Assembly: GCF_003151135.1 (NCBI RefSeq)
Contig: NZ_QEQK01000007.1
Span: 1-64,000, forward strand
Source: Abyssibacter profundi
GTDB taxonomy: Bacteria > Pseudomonadota > Gammaproteobacteria > Nevskiales > OUC007
DNA: 64,000 nucleotides
Reading direction: 5' to 3'
In this document: positions 42,371-47,241 of the stretch, piece by piece
Layout: the number at the start of each line of letters is the position of its first letter
Numbering within the stretch: position 1 is the first letter of the stretch
The notes under the pieces: model-generated
What the model was told of the DNA's origin: nothing
Database searches by the model: none
Seen by the model: the letters and a program-made list of their open reading frames with translations, nothing else
Position numbers and translations under genes: made by a program

Positions 42371-43621
42371 GTGGACCATTTCAATCTTCAAGACGGCGTG
42401 CTGCACGCCGAAGCCGTCGCCATCCCCGACATCGTTGCCACGCATGGCACACCCTGCTTCATTTATTCCCGCGCCACGCTCACCCGCCACTACCGGGTGT
42501 TCGACGAGGCGCTGGGCGGCTTGGAGCATCTGGTTTGTTATGCGGTGAAGGCCAACAGCAACCTGGCCGTGCTCAACGTGCTGGCACGACTAGGCTCGGG
42601 TTTCGACATCGTGTCGGTCGGCGAGCTGGAACGGGTACTGGAAGCCGGCGGTGCGCCGGACAAGATCGTGTTCTCGGGCGTCGGCAAGACCGAGGCGGAG
42701 ATGGCCCGCGCCCTGGACGTGGGCATCAAGTGCTTCAACGTCGAATCGCTCGCGGAACTGGAGCGGCTCAATGCCGTGGCCGCTGCCAAAGGCGTGCGCG
42801 CGCCGGTGTCACTACGCATCAATCCGGATGTCGATGCCGGTACACATCCGTACATTGCGACAGGCCTCAAGGACAACAAGTTCGGCATTGATATCGCGGA
42901 GGCCGACGCTGCCTTCGAACGCGCCCGCGACCTGCCCGCGCTGGACATTTTTGGCCTGGATTGTCACATCGGGTCACAGCTCACCACGCTCCCGCCGTTT
43001 CTCGATGCACTGGATCGCTTGCTGGTGCTGATCGACCGGCTCGCCGAACGCGATATTCAGATCCGGCATCTGGACCTGGGCGGCGGGCTGGGCATTCGCT
43101 ACCAGGCGGAGGAGCCACCACTGCCCGCCGCTTACGCCGACGCGATCAAGCAAAAGCTGGGAGACCGCGGCCTGGAGATCCTCATCGAGCCCGGCCGTGC
43201 CATTGCCGGCAATGCGGGGGTGCTGGTGACACGCGTGGAATTTCTGAAGCAGCAGCCGGCCAAGCACTTCGCCATTGTCGATGCCGCCATGAATGACCTG
43301 ATCCGGCCGACGCTCTACAACGCCTGGCAGAACATCGTGCCTGTGCAGCCGCGGGAGGATGTACCCGCGCAGCGCTACGACATTGTCGGCCCGGTCTGCG
43401 AGTCCGGCGACTGGCTGGGCCGCGACCGTGACCTGGCCATCGCGCCCGGCGATTTACTGGCGGTCCGCTCAGCCGGCGCTTATGGATTCACCATGAGCAG
43501 CAACTACAACTCACGCCCCCGGGCTGCCGAGGTCATGGTCGATTGCGAGACCGCCTACCTGGTCCGCGCCCGCGAATCGATTACGGATCTGTGGCGCGGC
43601 GAGACGGTGCTGCCGGCATGA
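42371..43621 (+). CDS. lysA: Diaminopimelate decarboxylase
   Basis: 416 residues, GTG start. A PLP enzyme making L-lysine from meso-diaminopimelate. The PLP lysine is K60 in CYAVKANSNLAVL. Other motifs: GSGFDIVSVGEL, FSGVGKTEAEM, RINPDVDAGTHPYIATGLKDNKFGI, HIGSQLTTL, LDLGGGLGIRY, EPGRAIAGNAGVLVTRVEFLK, and the active-site GPVCESGDWLGRDR. It overlaps polA by ATGA, so translation is coupled, an unusual pairing of amino-acid and DNA-repair genes. Confidence 0.97.
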   Translation: MDHFNLQDGVLHAEAVAIPDIVATHGTPCFIYSRATLTRHYRVFDEALGGLEHLVCYAVKANSNLAVLNVLARLGSGFDIVSVGELERVLEAGGAPDKIVFSGVGKTEAEMARALDVGIKCFNVESLAELERLNAVAAAKGVRAPVSLRINPDVDAGTHPYIATGLKDNKFGIDIAEADAAFERARDLPALDIFGLDCHIGSQLTTLPPFLDALDRLLVLIDRLAERDIQIRHLDLGGGLGIRYQAEEPPLPAAYADAIKQKLGDRGLEILIEPGRAIAGNAGVLVTRVEFLKQQPAKHFAIVDAAMNDLIRPTLYNAWQNIVPVQPREDVPAQRYDIVGPVCESGDWLGRDRDLAIAPGDLLAVRSAGAYGFTMSSNYNSRPRAAEVMVDCETAYLVRARESITDLWRGETVLPA

Positions 43622-46335
43622 GCCAACAGACACCGACCCTGTTTCTGCTCGACGGATCGAGCTGGCTGTACCGCGCCTTTCATGCCCTGCCGCCGCTGAC
43701 CAATGCCCAGGGCCAGCCCACCGGAGCGGTATTCGGCATGGGCAACATGCTGCGCAAGCTGCTGGCCAGCGAGTCCCCCGAACATATCGCGGTGATTTTC
43801 GACCCCCGGGGCAAGACCTTTCGTCACGAGCTGGACGCGAATTACAAGGCGAACCGGCCGCCCGTCCCGCCCGATCTGTCCGATCAGTTCGAACCCATTC
43901 GCGAGATGGTGGACGGTCTCGGGCTGCCGATACTGCAAATCGATGGCGTCGAAGCCGATGACGTCATCGGCACGTTGGCGCGCCAGGCCGAGGCCGCCGG
44001 CTGGAACACGGTCATCGTGACCGGCGACAAGGACATGGCGCAGGTCGTCAGCGACCAGACGGTGCTCTACGACACCATGAAAGACCGGCGCATGGACCCG
44101 GCCGGCGTGGTGGAGAAATTCGGGGTGGGACCGGAACGCATCATCGACCTGCTGGCCCTGATGGGGGACAGCTCCGACAACATTCCCGGCATTCCCAAGG
44201 TGGGCCCCAAAACCGCGGCTAAATGGTTGAATGCCCACGGTGACCTCGACAGCATCATTGCGAATGCCGAGGCCATTGGCGGGAAGGTCGGCGAGTCACT
44301 GCGCGAGCACCTGGACCTGCTGCCCAAGTCACGCGAGCTCGCCACGATTCGCTGCGACGTGGAGCTGCCGCTACGCTTTGACCAGCTCAAACGTGGCCCC
44401 AGCCAACCGGAGGTGCTGCGGGAACTCTATGCCCGCATGGACTTCCACCGCTGGCTGGCCGAGCTCAACGACGCGGAGGCGCCCGCCGAGGCGACGCCCG
44501 AGGCGCCAGCCGAACCCGAACAGACCCATTACCACACCGTATTAACCCGCGAAGCACTGGACGCGCTCGTCGAGCGGCTCCAGGCCGCAGACCTGATCTG
44601 CCTGGACACCGAAACCGATGCGCTGGATGCCATTACCGGCGGACTCGTCGGTTTGTCCTTCGCCGTGGAGCCCGGCGAAGCCTGGTACGTGCCGGTTGCC
44701 CATGACTACATGGGCGCCCCCGAGCAATTGGATCGGGACGAGGTGCTCGATGCCCTGCGGCCCGTGCTGGAGGCTGAGCACCCGCCCAAGGTGGGCCAGC
44801 ATCTGAAGTACGACATCAATGTGCTCGCCCACCATGGCCTACAGCTGGCCGGCGTGGACTTCGACACCATGCTGGAGTCCTACGTGCTGGACCCCACCGC
44901 AGGCCGGCACGATATGGACTCCATGGCCGAGCGCCTGCTGGGGTTGAAAACCACCAGCTTCAGCGACATTGCAGGCAAGGGCAAAAAGCAGCTCAGCTTT
45001 AATCAAATCGATTTGGAGCAGGCCACGCCCTATGCGGCCGAAGACGCGGACATCACGCTGCGCTTGCATCAGACCCTCTGGGGGCGACTCGCCGAGCAAG
45101 CATCTCAGCGCAAGGTCTTCGAAACGCTGGAGATTCCGCTGCTGCGAGTGCTCGCACGCATGGAGCGTCGCGGTGTGCTCATTGACGCCGGGCATCTGCA
45201 AACCATCACCAATGAGATGGCGGAGACCATGCGCCAGCTCGAACAATCGGCCTATGAGGCGGCCGAGGGCGAATTCAATCTGAATTCACCGGCCCAGCTC
45301 AAGGACATCCTGTTCGAACGACTTGGCTTGCCGGTCAAACGCAAGACGCCCAAGGGCCAGCCCTCCACCGCGGAAGACGTGCTGTCCGAACTGGCGGCCG
45401 AACATCCGCTGCCCCAGATGATTCTGGACTGGCGCGGCCTGGCCAAGCTGCGATCGACCTACACCGAGCGGCTTCCCGAACGCATCAACCCAATCACGGG
45501 CCGGGTCCATACGTCGTATCACCAGGCCGTCGCAGCCACGGGCCGGCTATCGTCTTCCGAGCCCAATCTGCAGAACATCCCGATCCGCAGCCAGGAAGGC
45601 CGGCGGATTCGCGAGGCATTCATCGCCCCGCCGAATCACCGGCTGGTGGCCATCGACTACTCGCAAATCGAACTGCGGCTCATGGCCCACTTCTCCGGCG
45701 ACCGCTCGATGATCACGGCTTTTGTCGATGGCCGCGACATCCACCGCAATACCGCCGCCGAGGTTTGGGGCATGGCCCTGGACGCCGTCACCGATGAGCA
45801 GAGACGTGCCGCCAAGGCGATTAATTTTGGGCTGATCTACGGCATCTCCGCCTTTGGCTTGGCCCGCAATCTGGGCATTGGCCGGGACGAGGCCCAGTCA
45901 CACATGAACGCCTTTTTCGACCGTTACCCCGGCGTGCGTGACTACATGGACCAGTGCAAGACCACGGCGGCTGAACAAGGCTATGTGGAAACCCTGGCGG
46001 GCCGCCGCCTGTACCTGCCGGACATCAAGGCCCGCAATCAGCAGGCGCGGCAGTACGCCGAACGCACCGCGATCAATGCCCCGCTGCAAGGCACGGCGGC
46101 CGATCTCATCAAGCAAGCCATGATTGACATCGACCAATGGCTGACCGATGAGCACCCGGATGTCCGCATGATCATGCAGGTCCATGACGAGCTGGTCTTC
46201 GAGATCCCCGAAGACCGGGCCGAGGAGATGGCACAGGCGCTGGCGCGACGCATGGAAGCCGTTGGGCAAGGGCTGGCCGTGCCGCTGGTGGCCGAGTTCG
46301 GCATCGGGAACAACTGGGACCAGGCGCACGGCTGA
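43618..46335 (+). CDS. polA: DNA polymerase I
   Basis: 905 residues. The N-terminal 5'-3' exonuclease/FEN domain runs from LFLLDGSSWLYRAFHALPP through GDKDMAQVV and LMGDSSDNIPGIPKVGPKTA. The 3'-5' exonuclease domain retains its DxE motif (LDTETDALD). Polymerase motifs: A DYSQIELRLMAHFSGD, B RRAAKAINFGLIYGIS, C MQVHDELVFE. All three activities should be intact. The start is the ATG inside the lysA stop codon (ATGA). It fills Okazaki-fragment gaps and repair patches. Downstream is the candidate sRNA. Confidence 0.98.
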   Translation: MSQQTPTLFLLDGSSWLYRAFHALPPLTNAQGQPTGAVFGMGNMLRKLLASESPEHIAVIFDPRGKTFRHELDANYKANRPPVPPDLSDQFEPIREMVDGLGLPILQIDGVEADDVIGTLARQAEAAGWNTVIVTGDKDMAQVVSDQTVLYDTMKDRRMDPAGVVEKFGVGPERIIDLLALMGDSSDNIPGIPKVGPKTAAKWLNAHGDLDSIIANAEAIGGKVGESLREHLDLLPKSRELATIRCDVELPLRFDQLKRGPSQPEVLRELYARMDFHRWLAELNDAEAPAEATPEAPAEPEQTHYHTVLTREALDALVERLQAADLICLDTETDALDAITGGLVGLSFAVEPGEAWYVPVAHDYMGAPEQLDRDEVLDALRPVLEAEHPPKVGQHLKYDINVLAHHGLQLAGVDFDTMLESYVLDPTAGRHDMDSMAERLLGLKTTSFSDIAGKGKKQLSFNQIDLEQATPYAAEDADITLRLHQTLWGRLAEQASQRKVFETLEIPLLRVLARMERRGVLIDAGHLQTITNEMAETMRQLEQSAYEAAEGEFNLNSPAQLKDILFERLGLPVKRKTPKGQPSTAEDVLSELAAEHPLPQMILDWRGLAKLRSTYTERLPERINPITGRVHTSYHQAVAATGRLSSSEPNLQNIPIRSQEGRRIREAFIAPPNHRLVAIDYSQIELRLMAHFSGDRSMITAFVDGRDIHRNTAAEVWGMALDAVTDEQRRAAKAINFGLIYGISAFGLARNLGIGRDEAQSHMNAFFDRYPGVRDYMDQCKTTAAEQGYVETLAGRRLYLPDIKARNQQARQYAERTAINAPLQGTAADLIKQAMIDIDQWLTDEHPDVRMIMQVHDELVFEIPEDRAEEMAQALARRMEAVGQGLAVPLVAEFGIGNNWDQAHG

Positions 46336-46445: not shown

Positions 46446-46472
46446 GAACTTCGCCCGTCACAGCCGGTCTTA
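46446..46472 (+). promoter_or_regulatory. Sigma-E (RpoE/AlgU)-like promoter of the candidate sRNA
   Basis: GAACTT and TCTTA are separated by exactly 16 bp. This fits the extracytoplasmic stress sigma-E consensus (GAACTT, 16-17 bp, TCTGA/TCnAA) with a full -35 match and one deviation in the -10. It predicts a start near 46479. There is no protein-coding gene downstream on this strand before engB, which faces the other way. Confidence 0.65.
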
Positions 46473-46478
46473 TTCCGT

Positions 46479-46593
46479 GAGCGCTTTCCCCGGCGCTCTC
46501 CGCCTCCACTCCCTGGGCGGAACAAGCAATCGGCTCCCCAGCCGATACTGCTTCCCCGGCGCGGTCGTCCCCGGACCCGCCGGGGATTTTTTT
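46479..46593 (+). ncRNA. Candidate small RNA with three C-loop hairpins and a terminator (polA-engB locus)
   Basis: About 115 nt in the 285-bp polA/engB spacer. Predicted stems: GAGCGC/GCGCTC (46479-46498), TCCGCC/GGCGGA (46499-46521), ATCGGCT/AGCCGAT (46529-46546), then a terminator TCCCCGG/CCGGGGA followed by seven T (46568-46593). The first three loops expose TTTCCCC, CTCCCT and CCCC, which could pair with purine-rich Shine-Dalgarno sites. From memory the same position holds Spot 42 in enterics and the sigma-22-dependent ErsA in Pseudomonas; the promoter type here suits an ErsA-like stress RNA. The start is inferred, not measured. The part before it (46336-46445) shows only one weak hairpin. 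Confidence 0.65.
46568..46593 (+). terminator. Rho-independent terminator of the candidate sRNA
   Basis: Perfect 7-bp stem TCCCCGG / CCGGGGA, 5-base loop, then TTTTTTT. It also stops any polA read-through before the opposing engB gene. Confidence 0.9.
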
Positions 46594-46620: not shown

Positions 46621-47241
46621 CTACACGCTTTGCGGTAGCAGCAAATCGATCACCGCGCGCTGAGCGGCATCCAGCCCCGTTCCCGTGCGGGCCGACACCA
46701 ACTCCACGGTCGCCGCCCCTTCGATGGCCCGGATGACCTGCTGCTTGGCTGCACCCGCGGCCCCCTTCGATAGCTTGTCCGCCTTATTCAACAGAATGAT
46801 GCATGGCAACGGCCGTGCGGCACACCATTGCAGCATCTGGATGTCGGTCTCCGTCAGCGGACGTCGCGCATCCATGATGATCACCAGCCCGACCAGGCTG
46901 TCGCGCCCCTGTAAATAGCCCTCGATCATGCGGTGCCAGTCACGGCGCAGCGAGGGTGGCGCCTTGGCAAACCCATAGCCCGGCAGATCAACCAGGCGCG
47001 CCTCGTCGCGCAGCGTGAAGAAATTGAGCAACTGGGTCCGACCCGGCGTCTTGCTGGTCCGTGCCAGCGACTTTTGCCGGGTTAGCCGGTTGATGACACT
47101 GGACTTGCCGGCATTCGACCGCCCGGCAAAGGCAACCTCGGGGCGATCTGGCGGCGGAGTCTGCCGCAAGGCGGCCGCCGAACACTCGAATTGGGCGCTG
47201 GCGAGCAGCCGCTGGGCGAACGCTGTTCTGTCGTCGTTCAT
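46621..47241 (-). CDS. engB: Ribosome biogenesis GTP-binding protein EngB (YihA/YsxC)
   Basis: 206 residues. A small essential GTPase for large-subunit assembly. G motifs: G1 AGRSNAGKSSVI, G2 region KTPGRTQLLNFF, G3 DLPGYGFA, G4 LNKADK and G5-like VSAR. The order polA / sRNA / engB (opposed) / cytochrome c4 / dsbA repeats the arrangement remembered from Pseudomonas. It is divergent from the cytochrome c4 gene across 80 bp. Confidence 0.96.
   Translation of the reverse strand: MNDDRTAFAQRLLASAQFECSAAALRQTPPPDRPEVAFAGRSNAGKSSVINRLTRQKSLARTSKTPGRTQLLNFFTLRDEARLVDLPGYGFAKAPPSLRRDWHRMIEGYLQGRDSLVGLVIIMDARRPLTETDIQMLQWCAARPLPCIILLNKADKLSKGAAGAAKQQVIRAIEGAATVELVSARTGTGLDAAQRAVIDLLLPQSV

Follow-up and report, generated by a model that had tools for sequence, protein, structure and literature searches.

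What does the spacer between polA and engB encode? In 2013 the authors who described the small RNA (sRNA) sX13 asked whether the polA locus also encodes such sRNAs in other bacteria (PMC3771888). We addressed this question using a 64,000-nucleotide stretch of DNA from Abyssibacter profundi (positions 1 to 64,000 of contig NZ_QEQK01000007.1, hereafter the window), for which an earlier note had proposed, from the letters alone, a new sRNA under the control of a stress sigma factor in this spacer.

An sRNA gene in the polA-engB spacer

Two ORFs frame the spacer, polA upstream (43543-46335, + strand) and the convergent engB (yihA) downstream (46621-47241, - strand), and both are conserved neighbours throughout the class Gammaproteobacteria. 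Between them, on the same strand as polA, we locate an sRNA gene of ~115 nt (46479-46593, + strand), to which our covariance model R2 (see below) assigns 86.3 bits (E = 2e-20). Its start at 46479 was placed from the promoter together with the model. Folding of positions 46476-46593 yielded four adjacent hairpins with a free energy of -63.8 kcal/mol, compared to -42.7 ± 3.3 kcal/mol in dinucleotide shuffles (z = -6.4), and none of 200 shuffles was equally stable.

In this fold, stem-loop 1 (46479-46498) exposes the loop UUCCCC (46486-46491) and abuts directly on stem-loop 2 (46499-46521), which carries the loop CCACUCCCU (46506-46514). Stem-loop 3 (46525-46552), the pairs of which covary class-wide, presents the loop CCCC (46536-46539), so that the first three hairpins bear the C-rich loops ascribed to them before. 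The last hairpin is a Rho-independent terminator (46553-46593) with the loop GUCCCCG and a run of seven T's (46587-46593), recovered by a terminator scan as well as by folding; all four elements lie on the + strand. The earlier note had counted four hairpins and a terminator, of which the number of hairpins and the seven T's stand, the terminator being the fourth hairpin and not a fifth. As no ATG, GTG or TTG occurs within the sRNA in any frame, we ruled out a protein-coding reading. The gene is present in a single copy in the window genome, where the runner-up match reached 16.7 bits (model R1). Since structure, loops, promoter and locus all recur across the class (see below), these features go far beyond chance, and we regard a real and widely conserved sRNA gene at this site as very likely, close to certain.

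Conservation within the order Nevskiales/Salinisphaerales

In close genomes, a DNA search recovered this sequence 3' of polA. A pattern search placed relatives in Solimonas, Nevskia, Sinimarinibacterium, Hydrocarboniphaga, Fontimonas, Oceanococcus and Abyssibacter; it also returned chance matches outside the class, none of which adjoined polA and engB as in the window. As this search of named genomes demanded GAACTT, its loci were left out when promoter conservation was judged. Our first covariance model (R1, built with RNAalifold) missed stem-loop 3 and was therefore replaced by R2, the structure of which derives from individual folds. R2 matched 83 of the 85 genomes of the order, including all 72 of good quality.

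Folding the 54 distinct copies of the order individually, a procedure free of alignment-fitting bias, gave four hairpins in 52 of them, and in 43 all four loops were C-rich. The alignment of the same copies was fitted to part of the structure (the core of stem-loop 1, stem-loop 2 and the terminator) and its counts thus lean towards that structure: 90.4% of the cells were paired and 27 of 35 pairs showed double changes, more than in any of 500 shuffles or any slid control. The corresponding covariation score was 0.414, compared to 0.164 in shuffled and at most 0.080 in slid alignments.

A family spanning the Gammaproteobacteria

At E ≤ 0.01, R2 matched 167 of the 369 class genomes searched, representing 127 of 272 genera. 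Because the E-values of R2 are rough, we inspected the flanks at 109 match loci, the model itself describing only the RNA and being blind to neighbouring genes. At 91 of these loci the sRNA directly followed a co-oriented polA and/or faced a convergent engB on its downstream side; some of the remaining loci were near contig ends or retained only a cytochrome c4 gene. The window copy belongs to the family so defined, combining its R2 match with polA and engB flanks. A collection of plasmids contained no match to the sRNA.

The stems vary in a compensatory manner. In an alignment of 104 class-wide copies, itself fitted to the model, all 35 stem pairs showed double changes and 90.1% of the cells were paired (64.4% when shuffled). 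Stem-loop 1 and the lower stem of the terminator each covaried in 8 of 8 pairs, and stem-loop 2 was the most conserved element, with 97.8% of its cells paired. The loop core CTCCC was found in 102 of the 109 RNAs, the loop CUCCCU hardly varying. At least two C-rich loops were present in 107 of 109 RNAs (7 after shuffling), and 84 of 109 had three or more (none of 109 after shuffling). Conservation of the stems and of the C-tracts, on which the earlier note had staked its proposal, is thus borne out, as is the suitability of the loops for pairing with Shine-Dalgarno (SD) sequences. That the loops stay constant while the stems change suggests that the loops are the functional elements of the predicted sRNA.

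The distribution overturns one claim of the earlier note, namely that this is a distinct sequence particular to this lineage: it is shared across the class and is kin to anti-hemB and, less strongly, to sX13, neither of which the note had named. Nearly one in two of the sampled Gammaproteobacteria shares RNA, promoter and location, and we are therefore dealing with a broad riboregulator family, which databases see only as lineage-specific fragments (sX13, anti-hemB). The question raised by the sX13 authors is hence answered with yes in close to half of the class members sampled. The novelty lies in the family as it extends over the class, in its promoter and in the connection that it makes between sX13 and anti-hemB, not in the single gene; our search of openly accessible, journal-published literature found no description of a wider polA-engB family. 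About 200 of the 369 class genomes gave no R2 match.

Relation to known RNAs

At gathering threshold, Rfam returned no match in the window and, of 40 loci tested from across the class, recognised just 3. The closest relative is anti-hemB (RF02837), with which the window copy forms a full-length alignment (model positions 1-81) at 43.2 bits, below the threshold of 49.5. Homologues at L111, L118, L093, L094 and L134 surpass this threshold, and scores within the order reach 49.9 and 54.4 bits. Stem-loop 2 of anti-hemB (CCCCGCuUCuCCUCCCUGaGCGGG) is nearly identical to that of the window, the order of hairpins is alike overall, and the window copy has both the CUCCCU loop on stem-loop 2 and the C-rich terminator of anti-hemB; it differs in possessing stem-loop 1, which the Rfam model lacks. 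Sub-threshold matches to RF02837 alone also appeared in E. coli, Thermus and Thermotoga controls, and since the model is unreliable at such weak scores we used the flanks as independent proof. Transcription of anti-hemB has been observed in Burkholderia cenocepacia, where the RNA goes by the name ncS04 (PMC5688073). The accessible parts of the literature searched mentioned neither a function of anti-hemB nor a sigma-E promoter or a link to polA.

The sX13 RNA of the Xanthomonadaceae (RF02232) resembles the window sRNA in its position 3' of polA, its length of ~115 nt, its high degree of structure and its C-rich apical loops on stable stems (PMC3771888). Its stems differ, the window copy scoring 24.9 bits where the gathering threshold is 50 and the best homologue (L100) 39.5 bits, and tandem arrays are a feature of the relatives of the window sRNA. 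Two separately named Rfam families are thereby joined in one set supported by synteny.

ErsA of Pseudomonas aeruginosa, which we compared by description, locus and promoter, also occupies the polA-engB locus. It depends on sigma-22 (AlgU) (PMC8575079, PMC5819304), and the window sRNA has, as judged by sequence, a promoter of the sigma-22/RpoE type. ErsA is 132 nt long and pairs via an unstructured U-rich domain between its first two stem-loops, a domain for which the fold of the window sRNA leaves no gap, and it needs Hfq for the activation of anr (PMC8575079). Spot 42 of E. coli (spf) shares the locus (polA-spf-yihA). The covariance comparison with Spot 42 that had been suggested turned out negative: the Rfam search yielded no match to RF00021 in the window, and E. 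coli spf scored 15.4 bits with R2, the level of chance matches in the window, in an alignment that rests on the terminator, leaving only locus and terminator in common. For SabS, an ECF-sigma-dependent sRNA of Acinetobacter, no placement at polA was found in the accessible parts of the literature searched.

A sigma-E-type promoter

The element GAACTT-N16-TCTTA reported earlier is present as written on the + strand (46446-46472), with a -35 box GAACTT (46446-46451), a 16-nt spacer and a -10 box TCTTA (46468-46472). Among the 109 class-wide homologues, which had been chosen regardless of promoter, 63 carried GAAC[TC]H-N15-17-TCNNA, compared to a mean of 0.38 in shuffled sequences, none in reversed sequences and one in downstream flanks. 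The spacer measured 16 nt in 58 of these 63 homologues, and most -35 boxes began 31-35 nt 5' of the RNA. The assignment as a sigma-E-type promoter thus holds well beyond the window and ties the polA locus to this promoter class.

In the 3.74 Mb window genome, GAACTT-N15-17-TCTNA occurred nine times, compared to six times for the backward control. Besides the site at this sRNA, others preceded ORFs read as rpoH, lpxC, rpoD (at a distance of 341 nt) and a gene for a small lipoprotein. Sigma-E regulons comprise rpoH and rpoD as well as lipid A genes. The genome also encodes hfq and an rpoE scoring above the curated cut-off; the two ORFs that come after rpoE were interpreted, from sequence, as RseA- and RseB-like. 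Upstream of rpoE we found no good match to GAACTT-N16-TCNNA, only GAACTA-N14-TCAGG (L206 ~2170-2140, - strand), and autoregulation of rpoE through the same element was therefore not seen; the rpoE promoter was dropped as a reference element owing to this imperfect match. From the promoter sequence and its conservation we strongly infer that the sRNA is transcribed by an RpoE/AlgU-type sigma factor.

This assignment bears on the best-surviving alternative, in which the RNA would be an sX13 orthologue driven by a housekeeping promoter, acting as a constitutive, Hfq-independent regulator and making no use of its resemblance to sigma-E promoters. Site, C-rich loops, independence from Hfq and type IV pilus targets of sX13 would all fit (PMC3771888), and the alignment with sX13, though weak, is full-length. 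We nevertheless consider it unlikely, given that the promoter with its 16-nt spacer is kept at a fixed distance in 63 of 109 homologues and that a scan of the polA-engB spacer found no sigma-70-type site. No sigma-E-type promoter is reported for sX13 in the accessible parts of the literature searched.

Candidate targets and proposed mechanism

We propose that the gene in the spacer specifies a trans-acting sRNA belonging to the class-wide family, which under envelope stress would be transcribed by the RpoE/AlgU-type sigma factor. Its C-rich loops may then pair with G-rich SD sequences (AGGGAG/GGGGA) and block ribosome binding, mainly on mRNAs of envelope and type IV pilus genes. Hfq may be little needed, as is suggested by the precedent of sX13 and by the absence of any extended single-stranded stretch. 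Judged from sequence, the combination of sigma-E control with a block at the SD sequences of envelope and pilus transcripts is the best-supported mechanism and probably the right one. It offers a testable envelope-stress function, also for Solimonas, Nevskia and Hydrocarboniphaga, in which the literature search found no described counterpart.

The loop of stem-loop 2, CACUCCCU, is complementary to AGGGAGUG, and its complement AGGGAGTG was used to look for targets. In the three genomes of the genus, AGGGAGTG-N2-10-ATG occurred at 11, 12 and 11 sites, compared to 0-3 for the backward pattern. The best candidate in the genus is pilQ, which AGGGAGTG precedes in all three genomes and also in another genus; in the window genome the motif additionally precedes mlaA, both gene names being read from sequence. 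Across ten genomes of the order it was again found before pilQ, and before a pilU/pilT-like and a fimV-like gene. The pilQ match gains credibility because sX13, for whose action both the C-rich loops and G-rich motifs of the targets are required, represses mRNAs with such motifs, among them hfq and type IV pilus genes, 14 of which belong to its regulon (PMC3771888). We dropped hfq as a target shared with sX13, as no G-rich motif was found upstream of its start in the window genome; the sX13 motif in hfq sits inside the gene (PMC3771888). An SD complementary to the loop of stem-loop 2 also precedes a conserved exported protein of 97 aa in each of the three genomes of the genus (L225, L227, L235).

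On likely real genes, exported or membrane-type N-termini were found for 37 of 62 genes preceded by AGGGAGTG and for 21 of 61 preceded by AAGGAGTG, a control differing in one base (P = 0.004, one-sided, with a crude signal-peptide rule and non-independent orthologues); within the genus alone the bias gave P = 0.11.

CcsR, or cuckoo, RNAs are of a C-rich-loop decoy or anti-SD type, a likeness to the present sRNA that finds light support in the literature. A stress-induced, tandem RNA of this type would broadly titrate a protein or G-rich RNAs and serve no defined set of mRNAs, and both the tandem copies described below and the CUCCCU loop would suit it. The envelope bias and the SD complementarity conserved among orthologues rather suggest specific targets, and we hold such a decoy to be improbable.

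Copy number and arrangement

By our own count from the table of matches, 44 of 83 genomes of the order contain 2-6 R2 matches. Copies at polA stand in tandem, ~200-400 nt apart, and in the cases inspected most have their own GAACTT element. Such arrays of 2-6 copies 3' of polA were seen at L069 (6040-6904; four copies at L069), L005, L006, L017-L020, L029 and L030 and in genomes G014 and G429. The tandem copies differ chiefly in their stems and in loop 1, as if diverging in target choice. In two further genomes the gene is flipped within the polA-engB spacer, so that its direction of transcription runs from engB to polA (L170 3001-3123 in G074; L176 3001-3108 in G145).

That the hairpins are a mere terminator region of polA or an RNA derived from its 3'-UTR without trans function, as a strong terminator shortly 3' of polA might suggest, is very improbable in view of the spacer's own conserved promoter, the tandem duplicates with promoters of their own, the constant loops on covarying stems and the inversion of the gene relative to polA and engB in two genomes.

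We tentatively suggest, as a possibility somewhat short of even, that one ancestral sRNA under an envelope-stress sigma factor has occupied the polA-engB spacer from an early stage of the class. Its lineage-specific forms would then be sX13, anti-hemB and ErsA, its anti-SD loops would lower the synthesis of envelope and pilus proteins, and tandem duplication would raise its dosage in some lineages. A second copy of the sRNA (G003:C108:2351-2452) was also observed ~1.7 kb from the first one at L004 (genome G003), part of it obscured by consecutive N's.
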